Below, one piece after another: positions 7,131-51,345 of a stretch of 64,000 nt of DNA. The notes beneath the pieces are model-generated. The model did not search any database and was not told the DNA's origin. It was given only the letters and a program-made list of their open reading frames with translations. Each line of letters begins with the position of its first letter. Position 1 is the first letter of the stretch. Position numbers and translations under genes: made by a program. The stretch lies in the NCBI GenBank assembly GCA_002238645.1, contig MPMT01000006.1:1-64000 (forward strand). The letters run 5' to 3'. Source of the stretch: Alphaproteobacteria bacterium bin52 (lineage in GTDB: Bacteria > Pseudomonadota > Alphaproteobacteria > Thalassobaculales > Thalassobaculaceae).

Positions 7131-7652
7131 GCCGCCCCCTTGTGCTGTCAATGACGGTGAAGCTACCGGGACCGGGCGGCGAGCGAAAGTCGCCTTCAGC
7201 CCGGATCGGCGGCTTTATTCGCCTTGTGATGGGACATCACGAAACCATCGGTTGGATTCCGCGGCGTTCCGGACCCCGTCGAGGCGTTGATGCCGGGGCG
7301 CTACTACCCGTCCGTCACAACGCAGAAGGCATGGCGCGACCAGCCACCGCATACGGTGGTCTCTTCGCGCGGCAACAGCGCCGCCAGTTGCACCGCTTTC
7401 CGGTTGCCTCCCGGCCGATGCGCGAGGACGAGTATCTTGCGCCGGGTGACAGCCACGGGTGCCCCGGGGCCGGACACCGTCGGCCGGCGCCCCCGTGTAC
7501 GCACCGAACAAGGCGATGGCCGGACTTGAGGGACGGGTCATTGGCAAGAAGCGCGTGTGCGGCGCCATTGACCCGTTGATCACTGCCTGACACCACGTCG
7601 TCATCTTTCGTGGAAAAATGACGGGAACATTGCGGGAGAAACCGATCCCCGA
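7131..7652. other. Intergenic stretch, no gene recognised
   Basis: About 520 bases between the hydrolase start and the ATPase remnant. Short open frames exist on both strands, but none has a family motif or a convincing ribosome site. The region presumably holds the promoter for the minus-strand hydrolase/LLM pair near 7131-7250; I cannot point to a clear -35/-10. A minus-strand frame ending at 7304 (about 45 protein-like residues ending SRHAFCVVTDG) could be a decayed gene tail but is unidentified. Confidence 0.5.
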
Positions 7653-7871
7653 CTAGGCCGCCTGCCCGGGCAGAGCGTCTTTCTTCTTGGTGTCCGCGGT
7701 GTCGGAAAGAGCAACAGGGCGCGAGCGCAGTTCCCCGCTGCGCTGCGCGTCGACCTGCTCGACGAGGCCCGCTACCAGGACTACCTTGTCGATCCGTCCC
7801 TCATCGTCGCAGATCTCCAGCCGGCGGCGCCGGGCAGTTGGGTCATTGTCGACGAGATCCAGCGCCTTTTT
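7653..7871 (+). pseudogene. Remnant of a COG1373-type AAA ATPase (N-terminal P-loop part)
   Basis: In the frame starting at 7653 (no start codon) the translation reads LGRLPGQSVFLLGVRGVGKS..., then FPAALRVDLLDEARYQDYLVD... and SWVIVDEIQRLFG. It has a Walker A motif (GVRGVGKS), the LLDEARYQ segment and a Walker B motif (WVIVDEIQR). This order and spacing are those of the AAA-type ATPases with a C-terminal DUF4143 domain (COG1373), which are common accessory genes. After IQRL the similarity stops and the frame degenerates, so the rest of the ATPase and DUF4143 are missing. The normal start is also absent: the nearest ATG (7618) is in another frame and closes quickly. Confidence 0.75.
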
Positions 7872-8070
7872 GGGGTGGGGCGCGGGCCCGACCAACCCGG
7901 AGCACGATCCGCGGCGCGCGACGCTGCGGACACGTCCCCTTCTTGCAGGCTGTGCCACACCGTTCCACAATCCGCCCCGCTGGTCGGGGGTCCCTTGACG
8001 GCGTCCGGCCTTCGGATCGGACCCGGGATCAACCCCGGACCGGTGCGGCACTGATGGAGGAGGAGGCACC

Positions 8071-9042
8071 ATGCTGACGCTGGAGACAACCGATTTCGGA
8101 TACCTCGGATCCGGTCTTGTACGCCCGGAGTGCATTGTCGCAACCGCAGCCGGTGCCGTCTTCGCCAGCCACGGCGGCGCGCCGGGCGGCATTGCGCGGA
8201 TCGGCGACGACGGTGAATCGGAACTGATCCTGGCTCGCAATGGCGACATCCCCGGGGACTTCATTCCCAACGGCTATGCGCTGATGCCCGACGGCTCGTT
8301 CGTGATCGCCAATGTCGGCAGCGATGGCGGCGTCTACCGGTTGCACCGCGACGGCACCCTGGAAGCGTTCCTGCTCGAGATCGACGGCCGCACCCTGCCG
8401 GCCTGCAACTTCGTCAACCGGGATGAGGAGGGACGGATCTGGATCTCGGTCAGTACCTGGTTCCGCGACCGCGACCGGGCGCTGCGCAGGGGGCACGCCG
8501 ACGGGTTTGTCATCCTGGTCGACGAACGCGGCGCCCGCATCGCGGTGGACGGTATCGGCTATACCAACGAGAACAAGCTGCATCCGTCGGGGCGCTGGCT
8601 CTACGTGCACGAGACCGTGGGCCGGTCGATCTGCCGGTTCGAACTGGGAACGAACGGGCGTCTCGGACCACGGGAGACCGTGGCCGAATACGGACCGGGG
8701 ATCTTTCCCGACGGGTTCGAATTCGACGCCGAGGGCGGGATCTGGTGCACCAGCGTGGTGACCAACCGGATCGTCAGGATCAGCCCCGAAGGCGACGAGC
8801 AGCTGGTCTACGACGATGCCGACCCGGAGCTTGCCGAACGTGCCCAGGCCGCCTGGGAGAGCGACAGTTTCGGGCGCGACCTGCTGAACGCAGGACACGA
8901 CCACCCGCTCGGCAACTGCGCGAGCATCTGCTTTGCCGGACCCGACCTGCGCACCTGCATGATCGGCTCGCTCGCCGCTTCGCGGATCGCCACCTTCCGC
9001 TCGCCGATCGCTGGAGCGCGCCCGCCGCACTGGTCGTTCTGA
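8071..9042 (+). CDS. SMP-30/gluconolactonase-family protein
   Basis: 323-residue beta-propeller of the SMP-30/strictosidine-synthase-like group. Repeated blade motifs are visible: PNGYALMPDGSFVIANVG, DEEGRIWISVST, YTNENKLHPSGRWLYVHET (the Asn-rich metal-site strand) and FPDGFEFDAEGGIWCTSVV. Its C-terminal third (LLNAGHDHPLGNCASICFAG) differs from the first SMP-30 of this window, so the two are not recent duplicates. A strong GGAGGAGG lies just before the ATG. It is followed 100 nt later by an HMG-CoA-lyase-like gene and a CoA-transferase on the same strand, suggesting a catabolic set with lactone or acyl-CoA intermediates. Confidence 0.85.
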   Translation: MLTLETTDFGYLGSGLVRPECIVATAAGAVFASHGGAPGGIARIGDDGESELILARNGDIPGDFIPNGYALMPDGSFVIANVGSDGGVYRLHRDGTLEAFLLEIDGRTLPACNFVNRDEEGRIWISVSTWFRDRDRALRRGHADGFVILVDERGARIAVDGIGYTNENKLHPSGRWLYVHETVGRSICRFELGTNGRLGPRETVAEYGPGIFPDGFEFDAEGGIWCTSVVTNRIVRISPEGDEQLVYDDADPELAERAQAAWESDSFGRDLLNAGHDHPLGNCASICFAGPDLRTCMIGSLAASRIATFRSPIAGARPPHWSF

Positions 9043-9142
9043 ACCCGCCGCCGCCCCCGGCACCGGGCGGGGACCGGCTTGCGCGTCCCGGCCGGGCATG
9101 CGATTGAGTGGTCCGGCAGGCGATCGTGAACGGAGCGAAGAA

Positions 9143-10081
9143 ATGAACCGACCGGATTCAGTCGAAATCACCGAGGTGGGCCCGCGGGACGGCCTGCAGT
9201 CGGAACCGGAGTTCATCGCCACCGGGGACAAGATTCGGCTGATCAACGGCCTGATCGCGGCCGGCCTGAAACGGATCGAGTTTTCCTCCTTCGTCTCGCC
9301 ACGCGCGGTCCCCCAGCTCGCCGACGTCAACGAGGTTCTCGCCGGTATCGATCGCAGCGGCAACACCGTGCTGTCCGCCCTGGTTCCGAACGCCCGCGGC
9401 GCCATCAGGGCCGTTGACGCCGGTGTCGACGAGATCGTGGTGTTCATGTCGGCGTCGGAGAGCCACAACCTGAAGAACGTCAACCGCACCGTGGACGAAT
9501 CTCTGGCCGGCTTCGCCGACGTGGCCAGGATTGCCGGTGACGCCGGCATCCCGGTACACGGCGCCATCGCCACCGCGCTCGGATGCCCGTTCGAGGGTGA
9601 CGTCCCGGTCTCGCAGCTCGAGTACATCGCCCGGCACTACCGCGACATGGGGTTCACCGGCGTCGGCCTCGGCGACACCACCGGCATGGCCACGCCCCCC
9701 GTGGTCCAGAGGGCGGTCCGCCACCTGCAGGACACCGTGCCGGACCTGCCGATCACGCTGCATTTCCACAACACCCGCGGTCTCGGCCTGGTCAATGTCA
9801 TGACCGGGCTGGACGAGGGGATCTGCCGGTTCGAGTCCTCCTTCGGCGGCATGGGCGGCTGCCCCTTCGCCCCGAAGGCGACCGGCAACATCTGTACCGA
9901 GGACCTCGTCTACATGATGCACGAGATGGGCATCGGCACCGGGATCGACCTCGCGGCCCTGATCGAGGTGGCCCGGGAGGTCGAACGGGTGATGGGACGG
10001 GAACTGCCGGGCCAGGTAATGAAGGCCGGGCCGCGGCTCAGCCTGCACAGCATGGACGCCGTCGCCACGGCCGCTGGCTGA
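9143..10081 (+). CDS. Hydroxymethylglutaryl-CoA lyase family protein
   Basis: 312-residue TIM-barrel lyase of the HMGL-like (DRE-TIM) superfamily, which cleaves 3-hydroxy-3-methyl acyl-CoAs by retro-Claisen reaction. EVGPRDGLQ near residue 9 supplies the catalytic Arg-Asp, HFHNTRG the metal-binding His pair, and GGMGGCPFAPKATGN the catalytic Cys loop with the downstream Asn. The start is the ATG at 9143; the frame also continues 45 nt upstream. It is followed 7 nt later by a class III CoA-transferase, the usual partner for activating the acid substrate. This could be HMG-CoA lyase proper or an enzyme for a related 3-hydroxyacyl-CoA such as citramalyl-CoA. Confidence 0.9.
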   Translation: MNRPDSVEITEVGPRDGLQSEPEFIATGDKIRLINGLIAAGLKRIEFSSFVSPRAVPQLADVNEVLAGIDRSGNTVLSALVPNARGAIRAVDAGVDEIVVFMSASESHNLKNVNRTVDESLAGFADVARIAGDAGIPVHGAIATALGCPFEGDVPVSQLEYIARHYRDMGFTGVGLGDTTGMATPPVVQRAVRHLQDTVPDLPITLHFHNTRGLGLVNVMTGLDEGICRFESSFGGMGGCPFAPKATGNICTEDLVYMMHEMGIGTGIDLAALIEVAREVERVMGRELPGQVMKAGPRLSLHSMDAVATAAG

Positions 10082-47253: not shown

Positions 47254-48237
47254 TCAATCCGGCTTCGGCAACTCTCGCAACAGTGCCTTGACCACCCTCG
47301 CGGCGTTGCCGGCCGCAAGCTCGAGGAAGACCTCCATCTGGTTCGCGCCTTCGCCGCCGCCGGCGAGGTCGGCGAGGCTGCGAACGGCGATGAACGGCAC
47401 GCCATTCGCGTAGGCAACATGGGCAACCGAAGCGCTCTCCATGTCCAGCACCCGCGCGTCGAAGGTCTCGAAGACCCAGATCCGGAAGGCGGCATTGTCG
47501 ACGAAGGCGCCGCCTGACACACCCGCACCTCCGACGACGATCCGCGGCGTGTCGCGCAGGCACCTGTCCTCTGCCGCACACCGGGCGAGTACCGTTTCCG
47601 GAGCCACACGGCGGACGCCAGCCAGCATCTCCTCATCCGCCGGAAACCAGAACCGGGTTTCCGGAGCCTCGGCACCCTCGCGGGTTACGGTAACCGAGCG
47701 CGGGAACATCATGCCGAAATTCGCGTAGGGGTACTCGAAGAACGGCATCGTGGCCCAGCCGCCCCCCACCTGACGCGCAAACAGCATTTCGAGATACTGT
47801 GCCCACCGATCGGCGATCACGACATCACCGATGTTCAGTCCGGGATCCACGCCGCCCGCGATGCCGGTGAACAGGATGCGCTTGACCGCGAAGTGGTCCA
47901 GGGCGAGCTGCACGGTCATCGCCGCGTTCACGACACTGATCCCGCTCAGAAACAGCACGACGTCGCGGTCTTCCAGTGTGCCGGTGGCAAATGCAACCCC
48001 GTTGAGCGAATGCTCCGACGCTCCCTCGAGTTCCGCCCGAAGAACGGTCATCTCGGGTACAAAGGCGGAAATCACGGCGGTGCGCGGGGTCACATCGTGA
48101 CGATCATGCGCGCCGACCGGTGCAACTGCCGCTGCCAGAAGCGGCACCGAACCGATGGCCACCGCAAGGCAGCGCAGCACTGCCCGCGCGCAGGGAATGG
48201 CCCCGAACTGCGTGATCGTCGCCTTCTTTCCCGTCAT
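47254..48237 (-). CDS. Exported phosphorylase-superfamily (MTA/SAH) nucleosidase-like protein
   Basis: 327 residues. An N-terminal signal peptide (residues about 18-43, ARAVLRCLAVAIGSVPLLAAAVAPVGA) precedes a PNP_UDP_1 domain. Nucleosidase motifs: SGISVVNAAMTVQLALDHF, FTGIAGGVDPGLNIGDVVIA (Gly-rich base/ribose site), and VLDMESASVAHVAYANGVPFIAVRSLADLAGG with the substrate Met-Glu and catalytic Asp. Most MTA/SAH nucleosidases are cytosolic; a signal peptide points to a periplasmic member acting on imported or extracellular nucleosides. ATG at 48235-48237. Confidence 0.85.
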   Translation of the reverse strand: MTGKKATITQFGAIPCARAVLRCLAVAIGSVPLLAAAVAPVGAHDRHDVTPRTAVISAFVPEMTVLRAELEGASEHSLNGVAFATGTLEDRDVVLFLSGISVVNAAMTVQLALDHFAVKRILFTGIAGGVDPGLNIGDVVIADRWAQYLEMLFARQVGGGWATMPFFEYPYANFGMMFPRSVTVTREGAEAPETRFWFPADEEMLAGVRRVAPETVLARCAAEDRCLRDTPRIVVGGAGVSGGAFVDNAAFRIWVFETFDARVLDMESASVAHVAYANGVPFIAVRSLADLAGGGEGANQMEVFLELAAGNAARVVKALLRELPKPD

Positions 48238-48665: not shown

Positions 48666-49067
48666 TCACTCACCGGAGTGACGCCTGCCCAGTCCGTCGA
48701 TGATGGGACAGTCCGGCCTGTCGTCGCCGCTGCACGCCTCGACGAGATGGGCGAGTTCGTCGTGCAGCGACTGCAGCTCACGCTGCTTGGACGCGATCTG
48801 CTGGAGTCGCCGTGCCGCGATCCGCTTGACGTCGGCGCTTGACCGGCGGCGATCGGCATAGAGGTCGAGCAGCTCGCGGCATTCCCCGATCGAGAACCCG
48901 AACTCCCGTGCCCGACGGACGAAGACGAGCCGGCGGACGGTTTCGTCATCGTAGACCCTGTATCCTGCCGCGGACCGCGCGGCCGGGACCACCAGCCCGA
49001 TGTCGGCGTAGTACCTGACCGTCTTCACCGGCAGACCACACATTGTCGAGGCAGTGGAAATGTTCAT
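48666..49067 (-). CDS. cueR: Copper-responsive MerR-family regulator CueR
   Basis: 133-residue MerR-family activator. The N-terminal winged helix is MNISTASTMCGLPVKTVRYYADIGLV, then RSAAGYRVYDDETVRRLVFVRRAREFGFSI. A long dimerisation helix (RIAARRLQQIASKQRELQSLHDELAHL) leads to the metal loop ACSGDDRPDCPIID. The two Cys are separated by seven residues, exactly as in CueR, and the RRSSADVK segment also matches. This predicts Cu(I)/Ag(I)/Au(I) sensing. ATG at 49065-49067; a TTG two codons upstream is less likely. It is divergent from the copper operon it should control. Confidence 0.93.
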   Translation of the reverse strand: MNISTASTMCGLPVKTVRYYADIGLVVPAARSAAGYRVYDDETVRRLVFVRRAREFGFSIGECRELLDLYADRRRSSADVKRIAARRLQQIASKQRELQSLHDELAHLVEACSGDDRPDCPIIDGLGRRHSGE

Positions 49068-49076
49068 CGCCAAGCG

Positions 49077-49107
49077 TTGACTCTCCTGTTGCTGGAAACC
49101 CTAGGCT
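49077..49107 (+). promoter_or_regulatory. CueR-type promoter/operator
   Basis: -35 TTGACT (49077-49082) and -10 TAGGCT (49102-49107) are separated by 19 bp, the overlong spacing that MerR-family activators correct by twisting DNA. The spacer reads CTCCTGTTGCTGGAAACCC, with the CTGGAA core seen in CueR sites of copA/cueO promoters. It drives the DUF4396-copC-copD-cytochrome operon. Because it lies 10 bp from the cueR start it should also affect cueR. Confidence 0.85.
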
Positions 49108-49137
49108 ACCACCGCGTTGTGGACAAGGGGCACAGAG

Positions 49138-49584
49138 ATGACAGACCTGACCGCCCGAATGGCGATTGACTGGCAATGCCGGGGTACGTGGCACCGGGCG
49201 TCACGCAACACCGGCTGGTGCCTGCTCGGGTGCGCGATCGGCGACCTCGGGACAATCGCCTTCTTCCAGGTGACCGGCATTCCCTGGCCGACGCTGGCGA
49301 TCATGGCCCTCGCGATCGTTAACGGCCTGCTGACCTCGATCGCGCTCGAGACCGTGATCCTGTCCCGCCAGATGGATCCCGGCACCGCGTTCCGCACGGC
49401 GATCGGCATGTCGTTCATCTCGATGATCGCCATGGAGGCAACCATGAATGCCGTCGACTGGGCGCTGACCGGAGGCGCCGTGCTGACCTGGTGGGTGATA
49501 CCGCTGATGCTCGCCGCCGGTTTTGTCACCCCCCTTCCCTACAACTACTGGCGGCTGAAGGCACTGGGGCGCGCATGCCACTGA
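49138..49584 (+). CDS. DUF4396 membrane protein
   Basis: 148-residue membrane protein with about four TM helices. NTGWCLLGCAIGDLGTIAFF, IVNGLLTSIALETVIL and FRTAIGMSFISMIAMEATMN are hallmark segments of DUF4396, which is often found in copper and metal-stress loci. Conserved Cys, Met and Glu within helices could bind Cu(I); the transport role is inferred. It is the first gene of the CueR-controlled operon. Its stop overlaps copC by 10 nt. ATG at 49138 with AGGGGCACAGAG upstream. Confidence 0.85.
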   Translation: MTDLTARMAIDWQCRGTWHRASRNTGWCLLGCAIGDLGTIAFFQVTGIPWPTLAIMALAIVNGLLTSIALETVILSRQMDPGTAFRTAIGMSFISMIAMEATMNAVDWALTGGAVLTWWVIPLMLAAGFVTPLPYNYWRLKALGRACH

Positions 49585-49997
49585 GACCGACAGCACCGGG
49601 GGCCCTGCCTCGCCGGACCTGCGGCGCGCGCACGGCGGCCGCGGGACGATGGTGGTTCCCGCCGATGGCGATGGCGATGCTGGTCGCGCTTGCGGCGTCG
49701 CCGGCACTGCCCCATTCCCGCGTCGATACCACGGTGCCGGCGGACGGCGCGGTCCTGGACCGGACACCCGCCCAGGTGGTGCTGACCTTCGCGAACGGTC
49801 TGCGCCTGACCCGGGTCCTCCTGAGCCACAACGACGGTCCCGAGATCGAGGTCGACCCCGGCTCGCAGACCGGATTTGGTACCCGGTTCGAGCTTGCCAT
49901 CGAAGATCGGGGCAGCGGACGGTACCGCATCGAGTGGCGCGGGTTGTCGGCCGACGGACATGTGATGAAGAACACCCTGGAATTCCGGGTGCGCTGA
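49575..49997 (+). CDS. copC: Periplasmic copper-binding protein CopC
   Basis: 140 residues. An unusually basic leader (RRTCGARTAAAGRWWFPPMA) is followed by a hydrophobic core (MAMLVALAASPALPHS) and then the CopC Ig-like beta-barrel. After cleavage the mature protein would begin at or near His (HSRVDTTVPADGAVL), the N-terminal copper ligand. VLTFANGLRLTRVLLS and the conserved ending YRIEWRGLSADGHVMKNTLEFRV include the Asp/His copper site (SADGH). The ATG at 49575 overlaps the previous gene; an internal ATG inside the leader may be used instead. Delivers copper to CopD. Confidence 0.92.
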   Translation: MPLRPTAPGALPRRTCGARTAAAGRWWFPPMAMAMLVALAASPALPHSRVDTTVPADGAVLDRTPAQVVLTFANGLRLTRVLLSHNDGPEIEVDPGSQTGFGTRFELAIEDRGSGRYRIEWRGLSADGHVMKNTLEFRVR

Positions 49998-50000
49998 GAC

Positions 50001-50873
50001 ATGCCGGACGCCTGGGAACTGGCATCGATTGCGGTCCGGTTCCTGACCGGCCTCGGGTTGCTCGGCTCTGTCGGGCTGGTGCTGGTGCGGATGGTGTTTC
50101 GCTCCGAGACCGAGGACCTGCACCGCTACATCGTGGCCCGGGCAGGCGTTCTGGCGATGCTCGCCCTTGTCGCCACCGCACTGGGGTACATGGTCACGGC
50201 CGGGGCGCTCGTCGACGGGGTCTCCGGCATGATCGACGCACAATTCCTCGGCATGCTCTGGAACACGCCGGTCGGCATGGCGCTGGGCATGCGATGCGCC
50301 GGCCTGGCGCTGCTCCTGGCCGGCCTGTCCTGTGGCGCGTTTCCCCTCGCCGCCGCGGGCGGGCTGCTGGCACTCTGGTCGGTCACCGGTGTCGGCCACG
50401 TGGCGAATACCGACACGCCGTGGCTGCGCATGCTGCTGTTGCTGCACCTCGCCGCCGCCGCGTTCTGGATCGGCATCCTGCTCCCGCTGCGTCACATGCT
50501 GAATGATCCCGGCACGCACGCGCTTGCGGCCATGCTGGGTACCGGGTTCGGGGCCATCGCGCAGGTCGCCGTCCCGGCCCTGGTCGTCGCTGGAGCGGTG
50601 ATGGCGTGGCGCCTGCTCGGACACCCGTCAGCACTGATCACAACCGGGTACGGAGTGACCCTGCTAGTCAAGCTCGGTGCGGTCGCCGGTCTGCTGACAG
50701 CCGGAGCGGTCAACAGGTTCCGGTTCGTCCCCGCCCTGCGCACGGGCGACAGGACAGCGGCGAGGGGGCTGCGTCGATCGATTGCCGTCGAGACGATTCT
50801 GGTCTGTCTGGTGCTCATGGCAACTGCCGTGCTCACCACGCTTGCCGGCCCGGCACGCGGGACCGGGATGTGA
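50001..50873 (+). CDS. copD: Copper resistance/uptake membrane protein CopD
   Basis: 290-residue polytopic membrane protein with about eight TM helices. CopD-type features include VRFLTGLGLLGSVGLVLVRMVF, ALWSVTGVGHVANTDTPWLRMLLLLHLAAAAFWIGILLPL (conserved GH...H and W-G), and YGVTLLVKLGAVAGLLTAGAVNRFRFVPAL. It pairs with periplasmic CopC to bring copper into the cytoplasm for cuproprotein assembly. The ATG at 50001 is 3 nt after the copC stop. Confidence 0.93.
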   Translation: MPDAWELASIAVRFLTGLGLLGSVGLVLVRMVFRSETEDLHRYIVARAGVLAMLALVATALGYMVTAGALVDGVSGMIDAQFLGMLWNTPVGMALGMRCAGLALLLAGLSCGAFPLAAAGGLLALWSVTGVGHVANTDTPWLRMLLLLHLAAAAFWIGILLPLRHMLNDPGTHALAAMLGTGFGAIAQVAVPALVVAGAVMAWRLLGHPSALITTGYGVTLLVKLGAVAGLLTAGAVNRFRFVPALRTGDRTAARGLRRSIAVETILVCLVLMATAVLTTLAGPARGTGM

Positions 50874-50901
50874 AACAGGCCCCTAACGGGAGGGACGGAT
50901 C

Positions 50902-51345
50902 ATGATCACGGCCGCACGGATACTCGCGGTGTTGTTCGTGGGCTGGCCCGTGGTTGCAAGCGCCGACCACGAACTGGAGAACCGCGACACCGCCAGGGGC
51001 CAGGTGCTGTACCAGGAGCACTGCGCATCCTGTCATGGCGCCGAACTTGAGGGACAGGCGAACTGGCGGACTCCGGGAGCCGGCGGCATCCTGCCCGCGC
51101 CTCCGCACGACGCGAGTGGCCACACCTGGCACCACGACAACCGCCTGCTGTTCGATTACACGAAGCTGGGCGGCGAGGCGCTGATGCGCGAACGCGGCAT
51201 TTCCGGGTTCGGGAGCGGCATGCCCGGGTTCGCCGACGTGCTGGGTGACGAGGAGATCTGGGACATTCTGGCGTGGATCAGGTCCACCTGGCCCGACGAC
51301 ATCCGGGAAATCCAGTCCGGACGCAACCCGGAACACCGGCGGTGA
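50902..51345 (+). CDS. Exported class I cytochrome c in the copper operon
   Basis: 147 residues with signal peptide (ITAARILAVLFVGWPVVASA) and one heme c site CASCH near residue 41 with the preceding GQVLYQEH helix. The axial Met is probably in GFGSGMPGFADVLGDEEIWDILAWI. A His-rich loop (PPHDASGHTWHHDNRLLF) resembles the copper-locus cytochromes found with CopC/CopD, and may bind metal. Its place last in the CueR operon implies a redox role in copper handling. ATG at 50902 behind GGGAGGG. Confidence 0.9.
   Translation: MITAARILAVLFVGWPVVASADHELENRDTARGQVLYQEHCASCHGAELEGQANWRTPGAGGILPAPPHDASGHTWHHDNRLLFDYTKLGGEALMRERGISGFGSGMPGFADVLGDEEIWDILAWIRSTWPDDIREIQSGRNPEHRR

Follow-up and report, generated by a model that had tools for sequence, protein, structure and literature searches.

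What does a CueR-type promoter control when a gene for a DUF4396 protein, and no copA, stands behind it? CopA-type P1B ATPases are regarded as the main exporters of Cu(I) from the bacterial cytoplasm. In the window analysed here, a stretch of 64,000 nucleotides from Alphaproteobacteria bacterium bin52 (contig MPMT01000006.1), a tight operon of DUF4396, copC, copD and cytochrome c genes (49138-51345, plus strand) lies behind a CueR-type promoter from which a cueR gene diverges. The following features were assigned.

48666-49067, minus strand: CueR, an activator of the MerR family predicted to respond to Cu(I), transcribed away from the operon (TIGR02044 and PDB matches)
49077-49107, plus strand: CueR-type promoter, read from the sequence: -35 TTGACT (49077-49082), 19-bp spacer including CTGGAA (49083-49101), -10 TAGGCT (49102-49107)
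49138-49584, plus strand: DUF4396 inner-membrane protein of 148 aa, putative Cu(I) exporter (PF14342, 1.7e-36)
49575-49997, plus strand: CopC, periplasmic copper-binding protein, its start overlapping the DUF4396 stop (PF04234, 1.3e-18)
50001-50873, plus strand: CopD, inner-membrane protein (PF05425, 1.2e-21)
50902-51345, plus strand: cytochrome c, exported and with a single heme site (CASCH), carrying the His-rich motif PPHDxxGHTWHH (PF00034, 6.1e-13)

Regulator, promoter and operon

The regulator scored 153.6 bits against TIGR02044, above the CueR cut-off of 147.4, and matched the CueR structures 6ldi and 1q05 in the PDB with E values of 1.9e-31 and 3.2e-30, respectively. It could be aligned lengthwise to the E. 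coli CueR chains, including the C-terminal CSGDDRPDC segment, and in this alignment both the C-terminal C-x7-C (CSGDDRPDC) and the dimer-interface serine (SADVK) were present; we take these to be the positions C112, C120 and S77 of CueR. The open reading frame begins with a TTG at 49073, and the ATG at 49067 agrees with the MNIS start of CueR. When one mismatch was allowed, the CueR-box pattern matched twice in the 4.2-Mb source genome, each time directly upstream of a DUF4396 gene. As a control, the pattern was reversed, and it then matched nowhere in the same genome. A chance match was rejected on this count, on the reversed control and on the control stretches of relatives described below. 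Thus, the promoter with a 19-bp spacer and a CTGGAA core that the sequence-only reading had proposed is borne out by the sequence, and its assumption of CueR control is upheld by the TIGR02044 score, the E. coli CueR alignment and the box.

The four genes are closely packed, with a 10-nt overlap between DUF4396 and CopC followed by gaps of 3 nt and 28 nt. DUF4396 is a full-length match to PF14342 (126.1 bits against a cut-off of 27, model positions 1-138 of 141). CopC and CopD exceeded the Pfam cut-offs for their domains (68.2 against 23.3 bits and 77.5 against 32.1 bits, respectively) and fell below the NCBIfam equivalogs NF033814 (42.8 against 95 bits) and NF033808 (109.8 against 195 bits), which makes them divergent members of their families. 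The PPHDxxGHTWHH motif recurred in 27 of the 38 related module cytochromes (cluster c0), and 8 carried H..YEP.HHGD. The former could be an extra metal site beside heme c, and one may speculate from these motifs that copper is bound there, letting the oxidation of Cu(I) feed respiration.

Copper ATPases of the source genome and a second operon

The source genome (4.2 Mb, 96.75% complete) contained two matches to the copper-ATPase model. On contig C103, the ATPase adjoins ccoN/ccoO-like genes and its TM6 motif reads TCPCALALAVP; on C102, the ATPase adjoins a ZntR-like regulator, its motif reads GCPCALVISTP, and it contains a stretch rich in His. By their sequences these look like CcoI and ZntA, respectively; the assignment of TM6 motifs to CopA, CcoI and ZntA is our reading of the motifs and of the neighbouring genes. 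The 7.5-kb contig C102 (L007) also holds Znu-like ABC transporter genes near the ZntA-like ATPase and ZntR-like regulator, as well as a transposase-like ORF. No CopA-type ATPase was found in this 96.75%-complete genome with the copper-ATPase model, and neither of its two CueR boxes leads an ATPase. A copA under the same regulator, which the sequence-only reading had named as the finding that would overturn its proposal, was therefore sought genome-wide and not found, and a copA elsewhere was rejected as the explanation of resistance.

The second box belongs to another operon led by DUF4396.

G000:C49 (locus L009), about 7335-9670, minus strand: second CueR-box operon with DUF4396, cytochrome c and a Tat-type multicopper oxidase

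Because no cueR was found beside it, this operon is probably regulated in trans. The initial contrast of CopC/CopD, DUF4396 and cytochrome c with the usual CopA/CueO targets consequently stood for CopA, which was not found, but not for CueO, since a CueO-like target is present at this second locus.

Copper neighbours of DUF4396 in related bacteria

The class sample comprised 385 genomes, of which 55 contained the DUF4396 family, and 57 stretches around matches were fetched; in named genomes, 80 DUF4396 loci were obtained with a profile search. For the DUF4396 clade of the window, 111 distinct loci were counted after 2 of 113 had been dropped for too little upstream sequence. A divergent CueR gene lay within 450 bp in 54 of the 111, and a CueR box (score of at least 16 within 200 bp upstream) was present in 59, as against 1 of 4060 control stretches. 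CueR adjoined the box in 45 of these 59 loci and did not in 14. Taken together, 72 of the 111 loci had a sensor or a box and 84 had any copper-related neighbour or a box, and by the models applied both were absent from the other 27. When the CueR boxes of 22 genomes were searched for, 21 sites were obtained. DUF4396 follows 17 of them, and the other 4 precede genes for a multicopper oxidase or a cytochrome c; no site was obtained in the same genomes with the reversed control pattern. At the site of genome G329, a small ORF lies between the box and DUF4396.

The genes behind DUF4396 varied. At least one of cytochrome c, CopC, CopD and multicopper oxidase followed in 31 of the 54 CueR-linked loci, and none of these in 23, so that DUF4396 is often the sole recognised target of the cytoplasmic Cu(I) sensor. 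CopC/CopD stood downstream in only 19 of the 54. A survey of the co-occurrence of the four genes had been suggested; in the one made here, DUF4396 rather than CopCD was the constant member of the module. In seven loci of cluster c4 (for example L122, L150, L160 and L177), a cytochrome c' (PF01322) directly follows DUF4396 and occupies the place of the His-rich cytochrome c elsewhere.

The CueR-linked loci came from Rhodospirillaceae, Paracoccaceae, SAR116, Rhizobiaceae and Rhodobiaceae, from Maricaulis, Hirschia and Sneathiella, and from some gammaproteobacterial bins. On a tree of poor resolution, their linkage required 18 changes and is therefore not the property of one tight clade. Among the SAR11-type DUF4396 loci sampled no CueR was found; a CsoR-type repressor lay near four loci (SAR11-type L054, L057 and L058, and Maricaulis L148), and a CopI-type cupredoxin near eight, SAR11-type and gammaproteobacterial. 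Other subfamilies include fusions of DUF4396 with multicopper oxidase (L042 and L048, from other Alphaproteobacteria). In a set of 22 loci with short flanks, most of which had no such neighbour, a multicopper-oxidase match lay in the DUF4396 frame of L233, with a copper-ATPase match nearby, and of L234, with a CueR-like match nearby, and L250 had a CsoR match near DUF4396. Plasmid records yielded only one distant Streptomyces DUF4396 match, without copper genes nearby.

Two further arrangements were observed. Besides a CueR-linked copy, the family f76 genomes G286, G075 and G364 carry a divergent second DUF4396 (L086, L089 and L090, respectively) that has neither CueR nor a box. At L195 (G357:C35, about 1501-2975), a CueR box is followed by a multicopper oxidase, and a stretch there resembles the 3' end of a DUF4396 gene in another frame, which suggests that the DUF4396 gene was lost from a DUF4396-multicopper oxidase operon.

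Copper ATPases in genomes with and without DUF4396

CueR scored above the cut-off in 137 of the 385 class genomes, 124 without the DUF4396 clade and 13 with it. Any copper ATPase was found in 122 of the 124 and in 5 of the 13 (Fisher p = 2e-8), and a CopA-grade ATPase in 108 of the 124 and in none of the 13 (Fisher p = 1e-10), both tests treating genomes as independent with no correction for phylogeny. The CopA-grade line of E <= 1e-158 was our choice, the true CopA-type ATPase of G334 scoring 1.4e-156, and the TM6 motif was examined for a subset of genomes only. Among the five clade genomes with an ATPase, it was CcoI-like in four (with a ZntA-like one in addition in the source genome) and a fragment at a contig edge in the fifth (G185). 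The contrast persisted within the six families that contain CueR genomes of both kinds, to which this comparison was confined (7/8 without the clade against 0/11 with it, p = 1.6e-4), and in the CueR genomes no larger than 3.0 Mb, where a Cu-ATPase was present in 22/23 without the clade and in 0/5 with it.

A second set consisted of 41 genomes picked because CueR adjoins DUF4396, several of them single-cell or metagenome assemblies. CopA was missing from 35, of which 31 had no ATPase match and 4 a CcoI-like or ambiguous one, and 6 carried a true CopA motif alongside CueR-DUF4396. In Amylibacter marinus and Hirschia maritima, which share the arrangement, the sole ATPase matches resemble CcoI. 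Since G329 of the class sample also has CopA, as do these 6 of 41, the exclusion is not strict; CopA is mostly missing where DUF4396 holds the CueR promoter. Two other explanations of the missing CopA were rejected: HME-RND pumps, which were above cut-off in only 5/31 genomes (the label 'A1-type', borne by 31 genomes, was given by us from the sequences), and genome size, on the comparison at 3.0 Mb or less.

Sequence and predicted structure of DUF4396

A helical membrane bundle was predicted for DUF4396 (pLDDT 86.8, pTM 0.76), with the window protein and the sequences of 51 of the 80 loci taken together. In the model, residues 15-46, 52-76 and 81-111 form long helices and residues 120-142 a broken pair, and the charges of the sequence suggest that both ends are cytoplasmic. 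No variation was seen in the 52 sequences at C28, C32 and D36, which lie on a single face of helix 1, at M96, M99, E100, M103, N104 and D107, which run along helix 3, or at C147 close to the C-terminus. Across diverse DUF4396 subfamilies, the invariant residues were C28, G31, G35, S95, P134 and N136. Cysteine and methionine are the usual ligands of Cu(I), and a copper path from the cytoplasm to the periplasm through DUF4396 is therefore plausible.

The 148-aa protein contains neither the DKTGT nor the CPC motif of P1B-type copper ATPases, and it matches only PF14342. Foldseek returned no match to the model at E <= 0.001, no hit with an E value under 0.18 came from a profile search against solved structures, and the best VIA structural match (Z 8.3, rmsd 5.7, 115 aligned residues) was at a level that helical bundles usually reach. 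As there is no confident PDB match, no transporter fold backs the export claim.

Proposed function and alternative explanations

It is very probable that the window and the second operon belong to a CueR-driven copper-tolerance regulon. That DUF4396 does the job of CopA in it, export being the commonest way of doing so, is given an even chance, and the whole statement, a copper-tolerance regulon with its usual exporter exchanged and DUF4396 in CopA's seat, is held with the same half confidence. Under this proposal, CueR would sense cytoplasmic Cu(I) and open the 19-bp-spacer promoter, DUF4396 would export Cu(I) outward, and CopC, CopD, the His-rich cytochrome c and the multicopper oxidase of the second operon would bind, pass on or oxidise copper on the periplasmic side, the cytochrome presumably in a redox role. 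A Cu(I) exporter is the most likely identity of DUF4396 in this position. The suggestion that DUF4396 and the cytochrome turn the module into a tolerance or redox system gains support, the multicopper oxidase of the second box operon being a further such member. A broader claim is made tentatively and with reservations, namely that DUF4396 is an unrecognised family of non-ATPase Cu(I) exporters that replaces CopA in CueR/CsoR regulons of Alphaproteobacteria that are abundant in the sea, SAR11 and SAR116 lineages among them.

DUF4396 could instead be a membrane copper-handling or assembly factor and no transporter, handing copper to periplasmic partners or maturing them. Such a role, which we regard as possible but rather unlikely, would fit the many loci where DUF4396 adjoins cytochrome c, CopC/CopD, multicopper oxidase or CopI, as well as the multicopper oxidase fusions; two of the latter loci also have a copper-ATPase or CueR-like match nearby. 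However, none of cytochrome c, CopC, CopD and multicopper oxidase lies downstream in 23 of the 54 CueR-linked loci, and a periplasmic assembly factor would give no reason to expect an association with missing CopA. An import of copper by CopC/CopD upon CueR firing, which would load cytoplasmic cuproenzymes or a storage sink with the assistance of DUF4396, appears very improbable. CopCD and YcnJ have been tied to uptake (PMC7558416), yet importing on a signal of cytoplasmic copper excess is counter-intuitive, CopC/CopD is downstream in only 19 of 54 CueR-linked loci, and the remaining members of the regulon are of the tolerance type.

The missing CopA might also be a side effect in genomes that are small or oligotrophic, among which DUF4396 merely happens to be common. 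Many DUF4396 genomes are indeed small and marine, and small genomes without DUF4396 (G005 and G006) also lack a Cu-ATPase; against this stand the 22/23 and 0/5 of the CueR genomes of 3.0 Mb or less, the persistence of the contrast inside families and the 4.2 Mb of the source genome, so that we consider this account improbable. For the preferred reading, DUF4396 as the exporter in CopA's seat, a CueR regulon mostly without CopA and led by DUF4396 would give this domain a specific and testable role, and it bears on the means by which abundant ocean bacteria that lack copper ATPases withstand copper.

Comparison with known systems

The regulon shares with that of E. coli CueR (copA, cueO) the regulator, the 19-bp-spacer promoter and a multicopper oxidase target, which lies here at the second locus. 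It differs in that copA is absent, DUF4396 is the first gene at both CueR boxes, and CopC, CopD and cytochrome c are added. CopC, CopD and a PcoA/CopA-type multicopper oxidase are also found in the plasmid cop/pco systems (copABCD, pcoABCDE), which are copper-induced; here, however, the one-component cytoplasmic CueR replaces PcoRS/CopRS, no CopB is among the operon genes, and DUF4396 and cytochrome c are added. According to PMC7558416, cop/pco operons are copper-induced, and the role of PcoD and the transport direction of CopD are unsettled. Since these classical operons contain CopC/CopD, a copper-activated CopCD is not unusual in itself, and the surprise that the sequence-only reading saw in it does not hold. 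What is unusual is that the constant target of CueR is DUF4396 rather than CopCD and that DUF4396 is paired with the absence of CopA. CopI cuproprotein loci resemble the SAR11-type and some gammaproteobacterial loci, where this copper-tolerance cupredoxin stands beside DUF4396, whereas the operon of the window has no CopI.

Caulobacter vibrioides, likewise an alphaproteobacterium, has FixI/CcoI as its sole copper ATPase and no canonical CopA, and its copper exit route at the inner membrane is described as not identified (PMC12617631). Unlike the source genome, that control genome had no DUF4396 match; the absence of CopA alone is therefore no proof of replacement.

The window protein is a full-length member of Pfam PF14342, a family to which no function is assigned. 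PF14342 was not found by name in the open-access literature searched, which may miss reports in print, nor was a description of the CueR-DUF4396 module, which is not proof of its absence from print. One paper of that literature mentions DUF4396 at the flank of a heavy-metal cluster in Acidihalobacter. Elsewhere in the window, positions 47254-48237 (minus strand) encode an MTA/SAH nucleosidase family protein (TIGR01704, 103 against 73.8 bits) with a signal-like hydrophobic N-terminus; an exported nucleosidase would be odd.
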